This document shows, piece after piece, positions 11,422-27,571 of a DNA stretch of 64,000 nucleotides. Location: positions 1 through 64,000 of the forward strand of contig JAABSP010000026.1 of the NCBI GenBank assembly GCA_011390345.1, in the 5' to 3' direction. The position numbers were made by a program, and so were the translations under genes. A model generated the notes under the pieces. It was given only the letters and a program-made list of their open reading frames with translations. It did not search any database and was not told where the DNA came from. This DNA comes from Desulfobacteraceae bacterium. Lineage in GTDB: Bacteria > Desulfobacterota > Desulfobacteria > Desulfobacterales > JAABSP01. The first letter of the stretch is position 1; the number at the start of each line of letters is the position of its first letter.

Positions 11422-12894
11422 ATGAAAAAGATCGAAAAAAGGCCCGATGCCAAAAAGGGCTCAGGGTCGGAGGGAGAGCTTGCGGATTGCCAGAAGAGCC
11501 TTGCGGAACTGGAGAAGACCGAAAGTCTCTACCGCCGGATTGTGGAGAATGCCAGCGAGGGGATTCTCGTGGCCCGGGAGGGCCGGATTCTTTTCTGCAA
11601 CCCCAAAGTACGGCAGATGCTGGGAATATACGGCAGCGATCTCTCCTTTGCAGAGATCATCCATCCCGATGACCGGGAGATGGTGCTCTGCCGCCATCAT
11701 ATGCGAATGGCGGGGAATTCGGAAATGATCCCCTCCCTCTATCCCTTTCGCGTGGTCAAGGGAGGCGAGATCCTCTGGGTGGAGATCAACTCGGTGATGA
11801 TCCAGTGGGAGGGAATGCCCGCCACCCTCAATTTTGTCACAGACATCACCGAACGGAAACGGGCAGAAGAGGAGCTGGCCTCCTATCGGGGACAACTGGA
11901 GGAGCTGGTGTCGGAAAGGACCGCCCAGTTGACCCGGGCCAATGGGCTACTGCAGAACGAGATCCAGGAGCGGTGGCGCGCGGAGGCGGCCCTGCGCCGC
12001 AGCGAAGAGAAGTATAAAAACATCCTCAAGAGCATCGAAGAGGGGTATTTCGAGGTGGATCTGGGGGGCCACATGATCTTTTTCAATGATGCCATGTGCG
12101 AGATCTCCGGCTGCAACCCCAAAGAGCTGATGGGAATGCACAACCGGGAGTACACCTCTCCAGAGACGGCCAGGCGCATGTACGAGGTCTTCAATCGGGT
12201 CTATCAGACCGGAAGATCGGTAAAGATCATGGATTTCGAGATCATCCGCAAGGACGGCACGCCGCGGATTCTGGAGATGTCGATCGCGCTGATTCGAGAC
12301 GAGGGGGAGAAGCCAGAGGGATTTCGGGGGATCGTCCGGGATGTGACAGAACGGAACCAGGCCCAGGCCAGGCTGGCCTATCTGGCCTATCACGACTCTC
12401 TTACGGGGCTGCTCAACCGGAAGGCCTTTCTGGAGCGGCTGGAGGAGTCGATCACCTATGCGGGCCGGTACGGGATGAAGCGGGCCGTCCTCTTTATCGA
12501 TCTGGACCGGTTCAAACAGGTCAATGATACCTACGGCCATGAGATCGGGGATAAGCTGCTGGAGGAGGTGGCCCGGCGTCTGAAGGGTGCGATCCGGTCC
12601 ACAGATATCATCTGCCGTCTCGGCGGAGACGAGTTTACGGTGATCCTGAACAATCCGGACAACCCCAGACCAAAGATCGCGGCCGACAAGATCCGGACCG
12701 TTCTCTCCGAACCCTATGTGATCGACAACGTCACCATCGACTATATCTCCACCAGCATCGGCATCAGCATCTTTCCCGATGACGGGGAGGAGGTGAGGAC
12801 CCTGATCCGGAATGCCGATATCGCGATGTACAGCGCAAAGGACGCAAGAGACTGCTGTATCTGCTATGACGAAGGAATGGTTCGATTCTATTGA
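11422..12894 (+). CDS. PAS-PAS-GGDEF diguanylate cyclase
   Basis: A 490-residue soluble signalling protein. PAS domain 1 covers about residues 38-145 and ends in the usual DITERKRAEEE linker. A coiled-coil of about 50 residues follows. PAS domain 2 (about 195-310) ends in VRDVTERNQAQ. The GGDEF domain (about 320-485) has the start motif DSLTGLLNRKAF, the metal-binding FIDLDRFKQVND, an intact LGGDEF active site, and the inhibitory-site motif RSTD exactly five residues before GGDEF. It should make c-di-GMP from GTP with product feedback. There are no membrane helices, so the signal is likely cytoplasmic. A haem or flavin ligand for the PAS domains cannot be predicted. Confidence 0.95.
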   Translation: MKKIEKRPDAKKGSGSEGELADCQKSLAELEKTESLYRRIVENASEGILVAREGRILFCNPKVRQMLGIYGSDLSFAEIIHPDDREMVLCRHHMRMAGNSEMIPSLYPFRVVKGGEILWVEINSVMIQWEGMPATLNFVTDITERKRAEEELASYRGQLEELVSERTAQLTRANGLLQNEIQERWRAEAALRRSEEKYKNILKSIEEGYFEVDLGGHMIFFNDAMCEISGCNPKELMGMHNREYTSPETARRMYEVFNRVYQTGRSVKIMDFEIIRKDGTPRILEMSIALIRDEGEKPEGFRGIVRDVTERNQAQARLAYLAYHDSLTGLLNRKAFLERLEESITYAGRYGMKRAVLFIDLDRFKQVNDTYGHEIGDKLLEEVARRLKGAIRSTDIICRLGGDEFTVILNNPDNPRPKIAADKIRTVLSEPYVIDNVTIDYISTSIGISIFPDDGEEVRTLIRNADIAMYSAKDARDCCICYDEGMVRFY

Positions 12895-15413: not shown

Positions 15414-16646
15414 ATGGAAGAAGGTTTTCAATACGCACAAGGTAAAATCGTGTCGATCCTCAAAACCATTGAGGAGCTGAACCACCTCAAAGATGTGGAC
15501 ACCATCCTTGACAAGATCCTGTACGAGGCCCGGATGCTGGCAAGGGCCGACGCTGGCTCCATCTTTCTCGTCGAAGAAGAGAAGATGCTCCGGTTCAGCT
15601 ATGTCCAGAACGATACACTGTTCAAGGAGGATGAGACCAATATCGCGCTCTACACCAGCCGTCAGGAGCCCATCAGCGCACACTCGATCGTCGGATATGC
15701 GGCCCTCACCGGAGAGACCCTGATCATCGACGATGCCTATCATCTCTCCAATACCAAACCCTACAGCTTCAATCCTGCCTACGATCAGAAGTCGGGCTAT
15801 AAAACGGTCTCCATGTTCACCATTCCTCTGGGCGCATTTCCGGACCGGCTGGTGGGGGTGATGCAGCTCATAAATGCCCGGGATGAAAACGGCAGAATCG
15901 CCGACTTTTCCGAGGAGGCCGAGGTCTACATGCCCCTCTTTGCCAACCATGCCTCAATGGCCATCGAACGGGGCTTCATGAACCGGGAGCTGATTCTGCG
16001 GATGATGAAGATGGCCGAACTCCGGGACCCCCATGAGACGGGCGCGCATGTCCAGCGGGTCGGCGCCTACTGCGCGGAGATCTACCAGCGGTGGGCCCTG
16101 AACCGCGGGGTGGATCGGAAGAAGATCAAACAGACCCGGGACCTGCTCCGCCTCGCGTCCATGCTCCATGATGTGGGCAAGGTCGGGATCTCCGATACGA
16201 TTTTGAAAAAGCCGGCCCGGCTGACCAAAGAGGAGCATGATATCATCAAGTGGCACACGATCTTCGGAGCCCGGCTCTTTCACAACAAGACCTCTCCTCT
16301 GGATGAGATGAGTTTTGAGATTGCGCTCAATCATCATGAAAAATGGGCCGGCGGCGGATATCCCGGAAAGATCAATGATCCCTACGACCCTGCAGCAAAG
16401 CTCTCGATGGATTTTTCCAAACAGGGAAACGAGATACCGGTAACGGCTCGGGTCACGGCCCTCGCGGATGTCTTTGACGCACTCTCCTCCAAACGCTCCT
16501 ACAAAGATCCTTGGACAGATGACAAGATATTTGACGTGATCGAGTCGGAGTCGGGGAAGCATTTCGACCCGGAGCTTGTAGAGGCCTTCTTCCAGATCTT
16601 CGATATCATCAATGCCATCCGGGAGAAGTACCGGGAAGAGGCGTAA
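15414..16646 (+). CDS. GAF / HD-GYP cyclic-di-GMP phosphodiesterase
   Basis: A 410-residue soluble protein. The GAF domain (about 20-185) has ADAGSIFLVEE and the HSIVGYAALTGE segment typical of this sensor fold. The HD-GYP domain (about 195-405) has the metal ligands in MLHDVGKVGISD, then HHEKWAGGGYPGK, where the GYP motif is intact, and ADVFDALSSKRSYKDPW. HD-GYP enzymes hydrolyse c-di-GMP to pGpG or GMP using a di- or trinuclear iron/metal site. It pairs functionally with the diguanylate cyclase 4 kb upstream. The GAF ligand is unknown. No membrane helix is seen. Confidence 0.95.
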   Translation: MEEGFQYAQGKIVSILKTIEELNHLKDVDTILDKILYEARMLARADAGSIFLVEEEKMLRFSYVQNDTLFKEDETNIALYTSRQEPISAHSIVGYAALTGETLIIDDAYHLSNTKPYSFNPAYDQKSGYKTVSMFTIPLGAFPDRLVGVMQLINARDENGRIADFSEEAEVYMPLFANHASMAIERGFMNRELILRMMKMAELRDPHETGAHVQRVGAYCAEIYQRWALNRGVDRKKIKQTRDLLRLASMLHDVGKVGISDTILKKPARLTKEEHDIIKWHTIFGARLFHNKTSPLDEMSFEIALNHHEKWAGGGYPGKINDPYDPAAKLSMDFSKQGNEIPVTARVTALADVFDALSSKRSYKDPWTDDKIFDVIESESGKHFDPELVEAFFQIFDIINAIREKYREEA

Positions 16647-21179: not shown

Positions 21180-21260
21180 AATAATTTAGCCGGGAAAACA
21201 ATCCTCAACCGTTTTTTGGGATTCGGAAAAACCGCAAAAAAAGAGGTCCAAGATACGCCA

Positions 21261-22064
21261 ATGAAGGCCGCCGAACTCGCCATAAGCCCATTTGCCGCCA
21301 CCGGAAAATTCTCCCTTTTTCTTATAGGAGAGATCGGAAGGATCGCTATCTTCTTCTTTCACGGGCTTTTCACCATCTTCACCTATCCCTTTCGGATCAG
21401 CAACCTGATGGATCAGATCTATTTCATCGGATTGAAATCGATCTTCGTCATCGCCCTGACCGGTGCTTTCACCGGCATGGTTCTGGGGCTGCAGGGGTAT
21501 TACACCCTGGTCAAGTTCGGCTCCGAAGGGATGCTGGGGCCGGCCGTGGGGCTGACCCTGATCCGGGAGCTGGGGCCCGTGCTGGCTGCGATCATGATCA
21601 CCGCAAGGGCCGGATCGGCCATGGCCGCGGAACTCGGCATCATGCGGATCTCCGAGCAGATCGACGCGCTGGCCACCATGAACATCAATCCGATCAAGTA
21701 TCTCTTCTCCCCGCGTCTTGCGGCATCCCTGATCAGCTTTCCGCTCCTGACCTCCATCTTCGACGTTGTCGGGATCTTCGGCGGATTCCTCACCGGATCG
21801 ATACTGCTCGGGATCAACTCCGGGATCTACTTCTCCCACATGGAGGCGGCCATTGTCATGGATGACATCACCGGCGGATATGTGAAATCGATCGTCTTCG
21901 GAGCGCTGGTGGCCACCATCTGCTGTTTTCAGGGATACTACACCCATACCCGGAAAGAGGGTTTCGGGGCCAAAGGCGTGGGCAAGGCAACCACTTCGGC
22001 TGTGGTCTTCTCGTCTGTCCTGATCCTGATCTCCGACTATATCATCACCTCCTTTCTACTGTAG
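21261..22064 (+). CDS. mlaE: MlaE-type ABC transporter permease
   Basis: A permease of 267 residues with about five to six membrane helices. It is the core membrane subunit of the Mla complex that moves phospholipids between inner and outer membrane to keep lipid asymmetry. Family blocks are LTGAFTGMVLGLQGYY, IRELGPVLAAIMITARAGSA with the conserved Glu-Leu-Gly-x-Met segment (MAAELGIMRISEQIDAL), and the SPRLAASLI region. I chose the ATG at 21261, which has AGAGG upstream at a long spacing. A TTG at 21216 would add 15 residues and cannot be excluded. The order mlaE-F-D-C-A differs from E. coli mlaFEDCB plus distant mlaA. Confidence 0.93.
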   Translation: MKAAELAISPFAATGKFSLFLIGEIGRIAIFFFHGLFTIFTYPFRISNLMDQIYFIGLKSIFVIALTGAFTGMVLGLQGYYTLVKFGSEGMLGPAVGLTLIRELGPVLAAIMITARAGSAMAAELGIMRISEQIDALATMNINPIKYLFSPRLAASLISFPLLTSIFDVVGIFGGFLTGSILLGINSGIYFSHMEAAIVMDDITGGYVKSIVFGALVATICCFQGYYTHTRKEGFGAKGVGKATTSAVVFSSVLILISDYIITSFLL

Positions 22065-22070
22065 GCGACA

Positions 22071-23285
22071 ATGAGCCAGAACCTGATCGAACTCCAGGAT
22101 ATCGTTAAATCTTTCGAGGACAATAGTGTTCTGAACGGGATAAATCTTTCCATTAAAAAGGGAGAGACCACCTCGATCATCGGCAAGAGCGGCGGCGGCA
22201 AAAGCGTTCTGCTCAAGCATATCATCGGGCTGCTGCAGCACGATTCCGGAAATATCCTCTTCGAAGGCAGGCCCCTTTCAAAGATGAAAAAGGCCGAAAG
22301 AGGGGAACTCAAAGACCGGTTCAGCTATATGTTCCAGGGCTCGGCCCTCTTCGACTCCATGACGGTCTTTGAAAACATCGCGCTTCCCCTGAAGGAGAAG
22401 CGGTCCAAAATGAAAAAGAGCCGGATCAGGGAAAAGGTGAGGGATCAACTGGAGCAGCTCGACCTCGGGAGCATCGGGAAACAGTACCCCTCCCAGCTCT
22501 CCGGGGGTATGAAAAAAAGGGTGGCGCTGGCCCGGGCACTGGTGACGGACCCGGAGATCGTCCTCTTTGACGAGCCGACCACAGGCCTCGATCCGATCCG
22601 GAAGAACGCGGTCCACAGCATGATCTCCGACTATCAGAAGAAGTACGGCTTCACGGCCGTGGTGGTCAGCCACGAGATCCCGGACATCTTCTATATCTCC
22701 CACCGGATCGCGATGCTCTACGAGGGAAGGATCATTTTTCAGGGGACTCCGGAGGAGATATATGCCGCGGACAATCGGGATGTTCAGGCCTTTATCCGTG
22801 GAATGGAGAGCCGCCATGATGAGCTGACGGGGCTTCCCCCCCGCTCCCAGGGGCAGCGGCGGTATCAGGAGGAGGTGGCCCGGCTCCGGCAGGAGGATGC
22901 CTTCTGTGTGGTGATGCTGGCCATCGAAAGCCCGGATCAGACAGACCGGGAGATCAAATACTGGGCTGATCAGAACGCGATGCAAAACTTTGCGGCCCGG
23001 ATGAAGAAGCACCTGCGGGTGACGGATATCTGTTCCAGATATGGGCTCAACAAGATCATGCTGATGCTGCCCAACACCAACTTCGAACAGGCCCACAACA
23101 TCTGTGAAAAGCTTGCAGAGGATATGCGGTGCAGCAATGACGGGGAGAATCCATTTGCATCGAATTCCCCCTGTTTTACGGTCACGGCCGGGATCTCCGA
23201 GGCCAATGCCGAGCGATCCCTGGAGCAGGTGATAATGGATGCGGAGAACAGCCGCGATACATTTTACGAATTTCAGATGCGCTAA
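22071..23285 (+). CDS. mlaF: MlaF ATPase fused to a degenerate GGDEF domain
   Basis: A 404-residue protein; MlaF ATPases are normally 250-270. Residues 1-245 are a complete ABC ATPase: Walker A GKSGGGKS (38-45), Q-loop Gln89, signature LSGGM (143-147), Walker B VLFDEPT (164-170) and switch His201. Residues 248-404 align with a GGDEF domain. They open with DELTGLPPRSQ, have FCVVMLAIE at the usual beta-strand, an amphipathic helix, RVTD-ICSRY-GLNKI where RxxD-x5-GGDEF belongs, LMLPNT, and FTVTAGIS. The catalytic GGDEF is GLNKI and the metal-binding aspartates are gone, so it cannot be a cyclase. The RxxD motif (316-319) of the c-di-GMP inhibitory site is kept. This suggests a c-di-GMP receptor fused to the lipid transporter. 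The domain match is by eye. Confidence 0.9.
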   Translation: MSQNLIELQDIVKSFEDNSVLNGINLSIKKGETTSIIGKSGGGKSVLLKHIIGLLQHDSGNILFEGRPLSKMKKAERGELKDRFSYMFQGSALFDSMTVFENIALPLKEKRSKMKKSRIREKVRDQLEQLDLGSIGKQYPSQLSGGMKKRVALARALVTDPEIVLFDEPTTGLDPIRKNAVHSMISDYQKKYGFTAVVVSHEIPDIFYISHRIAMLYEGRIIFQGTPEEIYAADNRDVQAFIRGMESRHDELTGLPPRSQGQRRYQEEVARLRQEDAFCVVMLAIESPDQTDREIKYWADQNAMQNFAARMKKHLRVTDICSRYGLNKIMLMLPNTNFEQAHNICEKLAEDMRCSNDGENPFASNSPCFTVTAGISEANAERSLEQVIMDAENSRDTFYEFQMR

Positions 23286-23312
23286 TTTTGAGATATTGGA
23301 ATGGGAGGAAGG

Positions 23313-23762
23313 ATGAAAAAGGCATCCGTTGAAATCGGTGTGGGAATCTTCGTTCTGATCGGGCTGGCCTGCCTGGGGTATCTCACCATCAAGCTGGGCC
23401 GGATGGAACTGATCGGCGAGGGCTATTATGAAGTATCGGCCCGCTTCACCTCGGTGGCGGGGCTGACAAAAGGGGCACAGGTGGATATTGCCGGGGTCCA
23501 GGTGGGAAAGGTTTCTCAAATCACCCTTGATCCGGATATCAAGGTGGCCAAAATCTTCATGAAGATCAAAGAGGAAATCAGCCTGGCCGAGGATGTCATC
23601 GCGTCCGTCAAAACATCGGGTCTGATCGGCGACAAGTATATCAGCCTCGCCCCGGGAGGCTCGGAGGAGACCATTCAACCCGGCGGAACCATTATCGAAA
23701 CCGAGTCCGCAGTCGATATCGAATCCCTGGTCAGCAAGTACGTCTTTGGCGGGGTGGAATAG
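23313..23762 (+). CDS. mlaD: MlaD/MCE-domain lipid-binding protein
   Basis: A 149-residue protein with one N-terminal membrane anchor (about 5-24) and a single periplasmic MCE domain. The MCE core is visible as RFTSVAGLTKGAQVDIAGVQVG, then VIASVKTSGLIGDKYISLAPGG and a final PGGTIIETESAVDIESL. Six MlaD subunits normally form a hydrophobic ring on top of MlaE that receives phospholipid from MlaC. The ATG at 23313 follows GGAGGAAGG; an ATG at 23301 lacks a ribosome-binding site. Confidence 0.93.
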   Translation: MKKASVEIGVGIFVLIGLACLGYLTIKLGRMELIGEGYYEVSARFTSVAGLTKGAQVDIAGVQVGKVSQITLDPDIKVAKIFMKIKEEISLAEDVIASVKTSGLIGDKYISLAPGGSEETIQPGGTIIETESAVDIESLVSKYVFGGVE

Positions 23763-23799
23763 ATTTTTCGATGCAGGTGAATCAGGAAAAGGAGACCAT

Positions 23800-24462
23800 A
23801 TGATGAGAAGTAAATTTTTTATAATCATTCTGATGATACTGGGGCTTGCCCTTCCGTCGTCAGCTCAGGACAACAGCTTGGAAAACGCGGAAAGACCCGA
23901 CACCAAAGCCGAACCGATGAAGGCCGTTCAGGTCTCCATCGACAAGGTGATCGAAATCCTCAAAGATCCCCGATACAAAGAAGAGGAGAAGCTTGACGAG
24001 CAGCGGGATGAGCTGATGGGTGTCATCAAGGATATCTTCGATTTCGAAAAGATCAGCCAGCTCTCCCTGGGACGCTTCCGAAAGAAGTTGAACGATGAGC
24101 AGATGACAAGATTTATCGATCACTTCACCGAGCTTCTGGTGGATACCTATCTGAAACAGGTCCAAAAGGAGTTCCAGAACGAAGAGGTGGAGTATGCGGA
24201 GCAGACTTACCACCCCAGCGACAATGAGAGGGCACAGGTAAAGACGCTGGTGGTCAGAAAGGATACGAAGATCCCGGTCGATTACAGCCTCTACATCAAG
24301 GATGGCCGCTGGCGGGTCTATGACATCCGGGTGGAGGGGGTGAGTCTGATCAAGAACTACAGAACCCAGTTCGAAAAGATCCTGCTGAACCAGTCTCCGG
24401 ATGTGTTGATCGAAAAGCTGGAGAAGAAGAACATCGATACGGACATGGAAGCCAGGAAATAG
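23800..24462 (+). CDS. mlaC: MlaC periplasmic phospholipid carrier
   Basis: A 220-residue exported protein with a signal peptide ending around Ser-Ser-Ala (residues 18-22). MlaC ferries phospholipids between MlaA in the outer membrane and MlaFEDB in the inner membrane. The family appears in the FDFEKISQLSLGRF block, the FIDHFTELLVDTYLKQV helix, the VKTLVVRKDTKIPVDYSLY strand region and WRVYDIRVEGVSLIKNYR. AAAAGGAG sits before a double ATG (23800 and 23803). The C-terminal tail is highly charged. Confidence 0.93.
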   Translation: MMRSKFFIIILMILGLALPSSAQDNSLENAERPDTKAEPMKAVQVSIDKVIEILKDPRYKEEEKLDEQRDELMGVIKDIFDFEKISQLSLGRFRKKLNDEQMTRFIDHFTELLVDTYLKQVQKEFQNEEVEYAEQTYHPSDNERAQVKTLVVRKDTKIPVDYSLYIKDGRWRVYDIRVEGVSLIKNYRTQFEKILLNQSPDVLIEKLEKKNIDTDMEARK

Positions 24463-24472
24463 GTTGCATCCG

Positions 24473-25291
24473 ATGCAGACATCAGAGGATCGAAACAACA
24501 GATGGATTCTTCTGCTGCCGATTTTTCTGCTGGCGGGAAGCCTCATTCTGGGGCTTCCCGCAGCGGGTCTTTCACAGGAGAAGGGTGCAGGGAACGTCGC
24601 GGAATCGGAAGAGGGCGGTGATGAAGGATTCGAAGACTTTCTCGAAGACGATTTCGGAGGCGAGGCGTCGGCCGGGGAGAGAGTGGACGTTTCGGACCCG
24701 CTCTACTACTGGAACTATGCCATGTACCAGGTCAACGACAAGCTCTATTTCTGGGCTCTGAAGCCGGTGGCCAAAGGATATAAAAAAGTGGTCCCCGACA
24801 TTGTCAGAACCGGGTTTAAAAATTTCTTCCACAATTTGACAACCCCGGTGCGTGCCGCGAACTGTCTGCTGCAGGGAAAGGGCGAACGGCTCGGCAATGA
24901 GGTTGCTCGTTTCATGTACAATACCACGGTGGGAGTGCTGGGGTTCGGCAATCCGGCCAAAAACGACCCCCGCCTGCAGATCGAGGATGACGAGGATCTG
25001 GGGCAGACCCTTGCGGTCTACGGAATCGGGGACGGCGTTTATATCGTCTGGCCCGTATTCGGCCCCTCCACCCTCCGGGACAGCGTGGGGATGCTGGGGG
25101 ACCGCTCCCTCAATCCCCTCTCCTACGTCGATCCCGGAGAGCTGTCGGCCGGCATCAGTGCATTCCGCCAGATCAACGGGACATCCTTCCGGATCGGGGA
25201 CTACGAGGCCCTGAAGGATGCGGCCATCGTTCCCTACGAGGCCATCCGGGATGCCTATCTACAGAACCGGAAGAAAAGGATCGCAGAATAG
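24473..25291 (+). CDS. mlaA: MlaA/VacJ-family outer membrane lipid protein
   Basis: A 272-residue VacJ-family protein that completes the operon. MlaA sits in the outer membrane and removes mislocalised phospholipids from its outer leaflet. Motifs are DPLYYWNYAMYQVNDKLYFWALKP, the FFHNLTTPVRAANCLLQGK segment, RFMYNTTVGVLGFGNPA and the ...LPVFGPSTLRD-like VWPVFGPSTLRDS. Unlike E. coli MlaA there is no lipobox cysteine after the N-terminal hydrophobic segment; the region reads Leu-Pro-Ala-Ala-Gly-Leu-Ser-Gln. It is therefore predicted to be cleaved by signal peptidase I or to remain anchored. A very acidic stretch follows (residues 45-70). ATG 24473 is used; a TTG at 24464 is an alternative. Confidence 0.92.
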   Translation: MQTSEDRNNRWILLLPIFLLAGSLILGLPAAGLSQEKGAGNVAESEEGGDEGFEDFLEDDFGGEASAGERVDVSDPLYYWNYAMYQVNDKLYFWALKPVAKGYKKVVPDIVRTGFKNFFHNLTTPVRAANCLLQGKGERLGNEVARFMYNTTVGVLGFGNPAKNDPRLQIEDDEDLGQTLAVYGIGDGVYIVWPVFGPSTLRDSVGMLGDRSLNPLSYVDPGELSAGISAFRQINGTSFRIGDYEALKDAAIVPYEAIRDAYLQNRKKRIAE

Positions 25292-25390
25292 ATGAGCGGT
25301 TTTTCCTTCTGTGCCCGGTCTTGAAACAGAACCGAAGACCTTTCGGTTGTGTATATATTATGTTGAATCGGTAGTAAAATGGAGGAAAAT

Positions 25391-27571
25391 ATGAAAACTT
25401 CAAAAACCTTGATCATCATTGTCAGCATCCTTTTTCTATCGGCCGCTACGGCATCGGCAAAACTCTATTTTCCTCTGGTTGTCAGTGGGGGGGATTGGGA
25501 TACGGAACTCTGTATCATCAATGTCGGCGGAGAAGATCTTTCCGGAACCTTTAAAGCCTATAATAGTCGAGGAGTTGCATTAACTGCAGAGCAATCGATC
25601 ACGCTGCCCTCCTTTGGCCGGAAGGAGGTTAAAGTAAGCCAAAGCTTTCCTGAACCAAGTTCTATCGGATATCTGATCTTTGAAATTGAGAAAGGAGAGG
25701 CATCCGGATACGCCAAGATTTATACCGATGCAGGATATCGGATAGCGTTTCCCGCGGTGTCGGAGATCAATAAAAGAGATATTTATATCCCCCTTGTGAT
25801 TTCTGACGCAAATTGGCTGAATGGCTTCTGCGTACTCAATTCCACCCAAAATGCCAAAGATATCAGCGTAAGATTCAATACCGGAGATGTGAAAACTTTA
25901 ACGATTGCTGCAAAGGAACAAAGGATATTCACCATCGAAGATCTCTTTGAAAATGAACCTCCTTCCGGTATCGTATCCGGAGTTATCGAAAATGCCGCGG
26001 GACTCATCGCACTTGAGATTTTCTTCACCAAAGCCAGCAGCGGTTTACACTACCTGACTGGAATACCATTGAATGACAAAGTCAAGACACGAATGTATTA
26101 TCCGCATATCGCTTCTGACGCGCAGTGGCTGTCTGGAGTTGTGCTTTATAATCCGCTTGATTCCAAAACAGAATTCAAGGTAATTCCTTACTCCGCGGCT
26201 GGTGCTGCGCTCTCCTCTCCCCTGACATTTTCCTTGAGTCCGAAGAGCCAGTACATTGGAATGGCTGACCAGCTTTCTCTTCCTGAAGATACTGCATGGT
26301 TCGGTATCGAGTCCGACAATGGCATTACAGGATTTGAATTTTTCGGCACCAGAGACGGCAATCAACTGGCTAGTTATTCTGGCATCAATAGCGGACACAG
26401 GGAAGGTGTGGTTGCAAAAATTGAAAAGAATGGATGGAACGATGTTGTGTTCGTCAATGTAGAAGATGCTGCAGCAAATGTTCTGCTGACCCTGTATGAC
26501 GACAATGGATACATGGTAGGCACAGCAACCATTAAACTTGGCCCACATGAGAAAAATGCTTTTTTCTTTGAAGGGAATATCACCGATGCAACCTATGTCG
26601 CCTATGCTTCAGATCGAGAATTGGCCGTATTGCAATTTAATGGCTCTTCAGATGGATCGATGCTGGATGCGCTGCCGGGGCTCGGGATCACCGAGGGGCT
26701 GGAGGAGAACGTCACAGAGGCAATGGATATGGTCTTTGAAGCATCTTCTTTTCTGACGGAGGCTCCGGAGGAGTTGTCGACGATTCTGACATCCGGGATG
26801 TCGGGAGGGGGCGGCACCTGTCCCGCCGTAACCGCGCCGGAGATCGACAGCATTGAAAATCTTCCCTCAAGCATGAATTTCACAGTTGATTATGGAGCCG
26901 GATGTGATGTGCAGAGCGGGAACTCAGTGGCCGGCAGCGCTGTATTGGATATTCAAAATCTCGATCTGAATTCAGGCAACGCCCAGTTCACTTTGACTTT
27001 TGACAATATGAGCATGGATGGAACTGCAGTGGCCGATGGCATGATCTCCGGCAGCCTCGACAGTGATATCTCTGAAGATGGAACCCTGAACTCTCTCGAT
27101 CTGATCCTTTCCTTTGATGACCTCCTGCTGAGGGGAGATACGATCGACGGAGATATCACCATTTCGGCCGGCAATGTGGTTCTGGACCTGGAAAATCCAT
27201 CGGCTGAGATGACTCTCACCTTCAATGGTTTCAGTGCAGGCAAGTATACCGTGGACAGCGGAACCATCACATATGGCCAGAGCGGCGTCGGTCAGTATCA
27301 GGTGGTTGCGGATCTGGAGACGAACGAAGGGCCTGTGGATGCCACATTCCTCTTTGCCGAGAGCGGGGAAGAGGTGCTGACGGTCAATACGGTCGGAGAG
27401 GGAACCATTGCGGGATATAATGTCCAACTGACGGACGTCACGCTGGATCCCCAAGTCTGTCCATCCTATCCGAGCAGCGGAACCGCGACGATCAACGGTG
27501 TGGGAAAGACCGGAACGATCACCTTCACCGGCGCGTGTGACGGAAACTATTCTTACGCGGAAACGAACTGA
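25391..27571 (+). CDS. Secreted protein with four beta-sandwich-like repeats
   Basis: A 726-residue exported protein with a signal peptide (about 1-23, ending Ala-Ser-Ala). The first 450 residues hold four related modules of about 110 residues. Each begins with a YxPLVxSxxxW(L/D)xxxxxxN pattern: LYFPLVVSGGDWDTELCIIN, then IYIPLVISDANWLNGFCVLN, MYYPHIASDAQWLSGVVLYN and a weaker GWNDVVFVN. A short Thr/Gly/Cys linker leads to a Thr-, Ser- and Asp-rich C-terminal region of about 220 residues with alternating polar/hydrophobic strands and a Cys pair near the end. No enzyme motif is visible. GGAGGAAAAT places the start at 25391. It may be a surface or adhesive protein. It is followed closely by a secreted protease. 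Confidence 0.8.
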   Translation: MKTSKTLIIIVSILFLSAATASAKLYFPLVVSGGDWDTELCIINVGGEDLSGTFKAYNSRGVALTAEQSITLPSFGRKEVKVSQSFPEPSSIGYLIFEIEKGEASGYAKIYTDAGYRIAFPAVSEINKRDIYIPLVISDANWLNGFCVLNSTQNAKDISVRFNTGDVKTLTIAAKEQRIFTIEDLFENEPPSGIVSGVIENAAGLIALEIFFTKASSGLHYLTGIPLNDKVKTRMYYPHIASDAQWLSGVVLYNPLDSKTEFKVIPYSAAGAALSSPLTFSLSPKSQYIGMADQLSLPEDTAWFGIESDNGITGFEFFGTRDGNQLASYSGINSGHREGVVAKIEKNGWNDVVFVNVEDAAANVLLTLYDDNGYMVGTATIKLGPHEKNAFFFEGNITDATYVAYASDRELAVLQFNGSSDGSMLDALPGLGITEGLEENVTEAMDMVFEASSFLTEAPEELSTILTSGMSGGGGTCPAVTAPEIDSIENLPSSMNFTVDYGAGCDVQSGNSVAGSAVLDIQNLDLNSGNAQFTLTFDNMSMDGTAVADGMISGSLDSDISEDGTLNSLDLILSFDDLLLRGDTIDGDITISAGNVVLDLENPSAEMTLTFNGFSAGKYTVDSGTITYGQSGVGQYQVVADLETNEGPVDATFLFAESGEEVLTVNTVGEGTIAGYNVQLTDVTLDPQVCPSYPSSGTATINGVGKTGTITFTGACDGNYSYAETN

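Follow-up and report, generated by a model that had tools for sequence, protein, structure and literature searches.

A degenerate GGDEF domain fused to the Mla ATPase MlaF in Desulfobacterota

Introduction

The window analysed here, a stretch of 64,000 nucleotides from a Desulfobacteraceae bacterium, carries an mla operon whose ATPase gene continues into a domain resembling a diguanylate cyclase. This raises the question of what a signalling-type domain does on the ATPase of the Mla system, and whether c-di-GMP is its signal, as the initial annotation proposed. How MlaB is regulated was left unresolved by the authors of the MlaFB study (PMC7367683). A conserved signalling-type domain built into the Mla ATPase across a whole bacterial group offers a directly testable handle on Mla regulation. 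The architecture is real and widespread; no account of it turned up in the open-access papers searched, nor did anything relevant to MlaF with GGDEF or to Mla with c-di-GMP.

Results

The interval 22071-23285 on the forward strand was translated as one uninterrupted open reading frame of 404 amino acids plus stop. It has two parts:

22071-22796, + strand: ABC ATPase portion of MlaF, approximately residues 1-242 (ABC_tran; PDB matches to solved MlaF)
22806-23282, + strand: degenerate GGDEF domain, residues 246-404 (Pfam, PDB profile, predicted fold)

In the first part, ABC_tran matched residues 21-171 (E = 1.4e-35, over the curated Pfam cut-off), and the translation contained a Walker A (GKSGGGKS), a signature (LSGGM) and a Walker B (VLFDEP) motif. 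The Met of LSGGM, which the protein has, is conserved among Mla-type ATPases (PMC7367683), and solved MlaF structures ranked among the best PDB matches. The MlaF profile PRK11831 gave 185 bits, under its cut-off of 441 for the E. coli equivalog. The protein is thus an MlaF-type ATPase, for which we do not claim E. coli equivalog status.

The neighbouring genes were adjacent and on the same strand, in the order mlaE-F-D-C-A:

21216-22064, + strand: mlaE, which opens the operon and encodes the permease (Pfam MlaE PF02405, E = 2.1e-78, residues 65-279)
23301-23762, + strand: mlaD, an MCE protein (PF02470, E = 2.5e-22)
23746-24462, + strand: mlaC (PF05494, E = 1.2e-44), with a true start probably at about 23800
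24464-25291, + strand: mlaA lipoprotein (PF04333, E = 5e-65)

The Pfam scan detected no mlaB in the operon, and in the mlaE product it detected no other family and no N-terminal STAS domain. STAS_2, the family of the MlaB partner, had no match on the contig of the window and matched only on other contigs of the genome; no STAS_2 gene adjoined mlaF in this genome or in the 24 others checked.

Several further observations were made on the surroundings. MlaF-like ATPases in several other genomes adjoined open frames of about 400 amino acids with a STAS match (G055:C41:174093-175868, G031:C51:23306-25092 and G018:C82:19617-21396). These are possibly STAS-permease fusions, so that the regulatory domain of comparable systems may sit on the permease. 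Within the window, a 730-amino-acid protein without a match in the Pfam scan lay downstream of mlaA (25379-27571), and a GAF-HD protein (15414-16646) had the GYP motif HHEKWAGGGYP, in which Ala replaces the Asp that is usual in HD-GYP proteins.

The second part of the protein was recognised as a GGDEF domain by several approaches. Pfam GGDEF (PF00990) matched residues 248-393 with E = 1.3e-10 and 41.7 bits, against a curated cut-off of 23.8, and the domain alone was also matched by NCBIfam TIGR00254 over its cut-off, scoring best with SiaD. A profile built from 21 homologous C-terminal domains retrieved solved diguanylate cyclases from the PDB (best 3ign, E = 2.2e-20). An AlphaFold2 model of the domain, built from a 63-sequence alignment, reached a mean pLDDT of 85 and a pTM of 0.81, and its top Foldseek matches (TM about 0.7) were GGDEF domains, including those of PleD, WspR, SadC and SiaD. 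By sequence and predicted structure, the GGDEF fold is confirmed. The linker comprised a few residues, with the last ABC helix modelled at 236-244 and the GGDEF domain opening with DELTGL at 250; the full-length model (pTM 0.56) left the mutual placement of the two domains unfixed. The initial annotation had described an MlaF fused to a GGDEF fold over residues 248-404, and this description held: ABC_tran, LSGGM and the mla neighbours identified MlaF, the Pfam families MlaE, MlaD, MlaC and MlaA identified the operon, and two Pfam domains stood over their cut-offs in one open frame. The fusion is not a chance event: distinct homologous fusions number at least 123.

The distribution of the fusion was surveyed at two levels. 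At C-terminal profile scores of more than 110 bits, a level clearly higher than that of ordinary cyclases, about 75 of the 194 genomes from the order contained the fused protein. An even draw of 297 genomes of the phylum gave full-length matches in about 35, from some 16 families, a lower bound since six candidates were scored per genome. Contig matches were nearly all titled as metagenome-assembled genomes of Desulfobacteraceae, Desulfobacterales or Deltaproteobacteria. Of the 123 distinct fusions collected, 90 had an Asp at the position of D319 and 33 did not, the latter mostly reading GxGGFS at this stretch. Both subfamilies were housed in mlaE-F-D operons, mostly with mlaC and mlaA as well. 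Three genomes (G005, G032 and G056) held both kinds, the second as an extra copy, and G190 also had two fused copies. Several genomes (L197-L201 and others) carried a second mlaEFD operon whose MlaF bore a different degenerate GGDEF domain, of the GxGGFS type and lacking an I-site.

In a tree built from the ABC part only, the second subfamily formed one supported group, standing apart and including one unfused member (L117), while unfused MlaF proteins were nested among fused ones. This nesting indicates loss of the domain, most clearly for the unfused L023 beside the fused L196. The strong grouping of an unfused MlaF with a fused one (L023/L107 against L196) is likely a recent loss. Since loss of the metal Asp and the change to Gln at the base-recognition position, described below, are common to both subfamilies, we infer that the pattern suggests one old fusion event behind both.

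The residues of the cyclase active site were largely gone. The positions of the metal Asp, the guanine-reading Asp and the metal Glu were assigned by their equivalence to PleD.

23043-23057, + strand: GLNKI (residues 325-329) in place of GGDEF; the consensus of the D319 subfamily is G-[LM]-[ND]-K-I

The window protein has A284 at the metal Asp position and lacks the final AK..GRN helix. None of the 123 distinct fusions had GG[DE]EF, and most had T, S or A for the metal Asp. The guanine-reading Asp was replaced by Gln (Q301 in the window protein) in 78 of 90 members of the D319 subfamily and 22 of 33 of the second. The metal Glu of the GGDEF motif (position 328) was K or R in 79 of 90 D319-subfamily members and was retained as E328 in the second subfamily. 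An active diguanylate cyclase was rejected on these grounds, with the GG[DE]EF motif, the metal Asp and the phosphate-binding tail all lost, and the proposed loss of catalytic residues and metal Asp was borne out by GLNKI, A284 and the shortened tail.

A pocket so remodelled, with T or S for the metal Asp, Q301 and K/R328, might instead bind another nucleotide without catalysis and report to MlaF. Conservation of Q301 in both subfamilies and of K/R328 in 79 of the 90 would fit this, and Ser for Asp at the same base-reading position alters the specificity of Hypr GGDEF proteins (PMC6456294). However, the phosphate-binding tail is lost, N292 is present in only 43 of 90 (D in the window protein) and E328 is kept in the second subfamily, and we consider this reading improbable.

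The inhibitory site, in contrast to the active site, was recognisable in the window protein:

23016-23027, + strand: I-site-like motif R316-V-T-D319; D319 is invariant in the subfamily that it defines, where 57 of 90 members have R316

Five residues (ICSRY) separate RVTD (316-319) from GLNKI, the exact RxxD-x5-GGDEF spacing. In the intact cyclase at 11422 the corresponding stretch is RSTDIICRLGGDEF, with RSTD at the place matching RVTD, so that the alignment of the two motifs first proposed for this protein is correct in the translations. In the alignment, K347 of the window protein presumably corresponds to the secondary I-site Arg, R390 of PleD; this position is K in 54 and R in 20 of the 90 D319-subfamily members. 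RxxD was present in all 16 of the C-terminal domains nearest to that of the window protein, and R, D and R/K347 occurred together in 46 of 90.

Conservation across the family was a different matter. The presence of D319 in 90 of 90 is partly by construction, as the subfamily was chosen by this residue. Position 316 was R in 57 and Y in 14, the rest being S, E, G, N, D, T or A; it ranked only 62nd of 159 columns by conservation, and the tree requires at least 12 changes between R and non-R. Among 38 intact cyclases of the window genome and its relatives (39 before L238, a non-GGDEF sequence reading AVGLAMT..., was left out), 36 retained the R and 37 the D. The Arg was therefore kept less often in fusions than in cyclases (57/90 vs 36/38, Fisher p = 1.6e-4, kinship ignored), and because of this its presence in fusions may be an inheritance from a cyclase ancestor. 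The second subfamily (33 sequences) had no I-site. The claim of a conserved I-site thus stood for the window protein and its 16 nearest C-terminal-domain relatives and failed for the family; conservation of RxxD among orthologous fusions had been set beforehand as the test. We rejected the I-site as a family-wide function, given R316 in 57 of 90, at least 12 changes and a second subfamily without the motif.

These data bear on the proposal that the domain is a c-di-GMP receptor working through an intact I-site, with the c-di-GMP level switching MlaF activity much as in PopA and SgmT. RVTD at the exact I-site place, K347 at the presumed secondary site, the 16 nearest domains and the at least nine intact cyclases encoded in the window genome speak for it, and SgmT offers a precedent, as its degenerate A-site and RHPD motif go with c-di-GMP binding that an R-to-A change abolishes (PMC3509222). 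On the other hand, R316 is lost in 33 of 90 members, more often than in intact cyclases, and the second subfamily sits in the same type of operon without an I-site. Control by c-di-GMP is thus not supported by the sequences as a function of the whole fusion family. With RxxD in 16 of 16 nearest domains, lineage-specific c-di-GMP binding in the sub-clade of the window protein is possible, and we regard the receptor as a minority reading with perhaps a one-in-four claim.

The most distinctive conserved residues lay elsewhere:

23031-23033, + strand: Cys321; 86 of 90 D319-subfamily members, 2 of 38 intact cyclases
23103-23105, + strand: Cys345, two residues before K347; 76 of 90 D319-subfamily members, 1 of 38 intact cyclases

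Both Cys occurred together in 74 of 90, including 28 of the 33 members without R316. D319 apart, constraint within the subfamily was strongest at F278, C321, G374, R323 and A341, and it was likewise high at Q301 and C345. In sequence, C321 lies within two residues of D319 and C345 within two of K347. As read from the alignment, the strongest family signature is D319 with near-invariant C321 and C345 and the change of Asp to Gln at the base-recognition position. The Cys pair could make the domain a sensor in the cytoplasm of an anaerobe, acting through thiol redox chemistry or metal binding, and its near-absence from cyclases and its persistence in members without R316 agree with this. However, the pair is absent from the second subfamily, and core packing could explain both residues, which makes a sensor about as improbable as the binding of another nucleotide.

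A functionless, decayed cyclase domain carried along with MlaF would account for the median identity to the window protein of 34% in the C-terminal domain vs 67% in the ABC part, and whole-domain loss has likely been repeated, according to the ABC-only tree. Yet dN/dS of the domain was 0.05-0.18 in seven well-diverged pairs, near the value of the ABC part; four pairs that differed at few synonymous sites gave 0.27-0.47, and one further pair was saturated. Beside D319, invariant in its subfamily, F278, C321, R323 and G374 were near-invariant, and the frames were open throughout the fusions recovered. Judged by these ratios the domain is under purifying selection where this is measurable and is not debris, and decay is very unlikely.

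Discussion

We consider it somewhat probable that the dead GGDEF domain is a module, located in the cytoplasm, that regulates or dimerises the MlaF pair. E. coli MlaF depends for dimerisation on its C-terminal tail, which an artificial dimeriser can largely replace, and it requires MlaB to remain associated with MlaE (PMC7367683). Because mlaB and apparently the tail are absent here and a GGDEF fold stands at the same end of the protein, this reading is the most economical. Simple replacement of MlaB, or of the tail of E. coli MlaF, is not a sufficient explanation of the domain, since unfused MlaF operons also lack a STAS gene: in the same order, unfused MlaF had no mlaB in the operon either, was about 245-260 amino acids long and, by this length, appears to lack an E. 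coli-type tail, and four unfused genomes had no STAS_2 match anywhere. As these unfused proteins, likewise without mlaB, are nested among fused ones, the domain is dispensable in relatives, which points to modulation rather than an essential role.

GGDEF domains can self-associate. Under the module reading, the pseudo-GGDEF domain would bring two MlaF ATPases together or hold them apart, and the signal would probably be sensed at the conserved patch of D319, C321 and C345, with R316 added in some lineages; c-di-GMP would be one candidate signal. That a second messenger, c-di-GMP in the sub-clade of the window protein, binds the domain and switches MlaF pairing is a tentative extension which we think has a low probability. 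If true, outer-membrane lipid asymmetry would be under direct second-messenger control in many Desulfobacterota. The family-specific site of D319, C321, C345 and Q301 shows where to look, and the history of R316 advises caution, as the RxxD of a catalytically dead GGDEF domain can reflect nothing more than descent.

We know of no ABC ATPase whose C-terminal regulatory domain has a GGDEF fold. The window protein resembles MlaF of the E. coli MlaFEDB complex (PRK11831; PDB 6xbd and others) over the ABC domain (residues 3-245, with LSGGM), and its operon shares the partners MlaE, MlaD and MlaC, plus MlaA, with the E. coli system. E. coli MlaF ends in an extension of about 25 residues and is partnered by the STAS protein MlaB (PMC7367683), whereas the window protein has a GGDEF-fold domain of about 159 amino acids and no mlaB in its operon. 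The c-di-GMP receptors SgmT of Myxococcus and PopA of Caulobacter combine a dead A-site with RxxD as the window protein does, and SgmT also lacks the phosphate-binding residues; SgmT is a kinase, however, and PopA a response-regulator protein, while the window protein is an ABC ATPase. The I-site is kept across SgmT homologues (PMC3509222), whereas its Arg is not kept across the MlaF fusions. Ammonium transporter-GGDEF proteins (PDB 8qj3) likewise join a transporter to a GGDEF domain, but the transporter is of another class and not an ABC ATPase. MetN and other ABC ATPases carry a C-terminal regulatory domain (PMC7367683), the arrangement that we propose for MlaF of the window.
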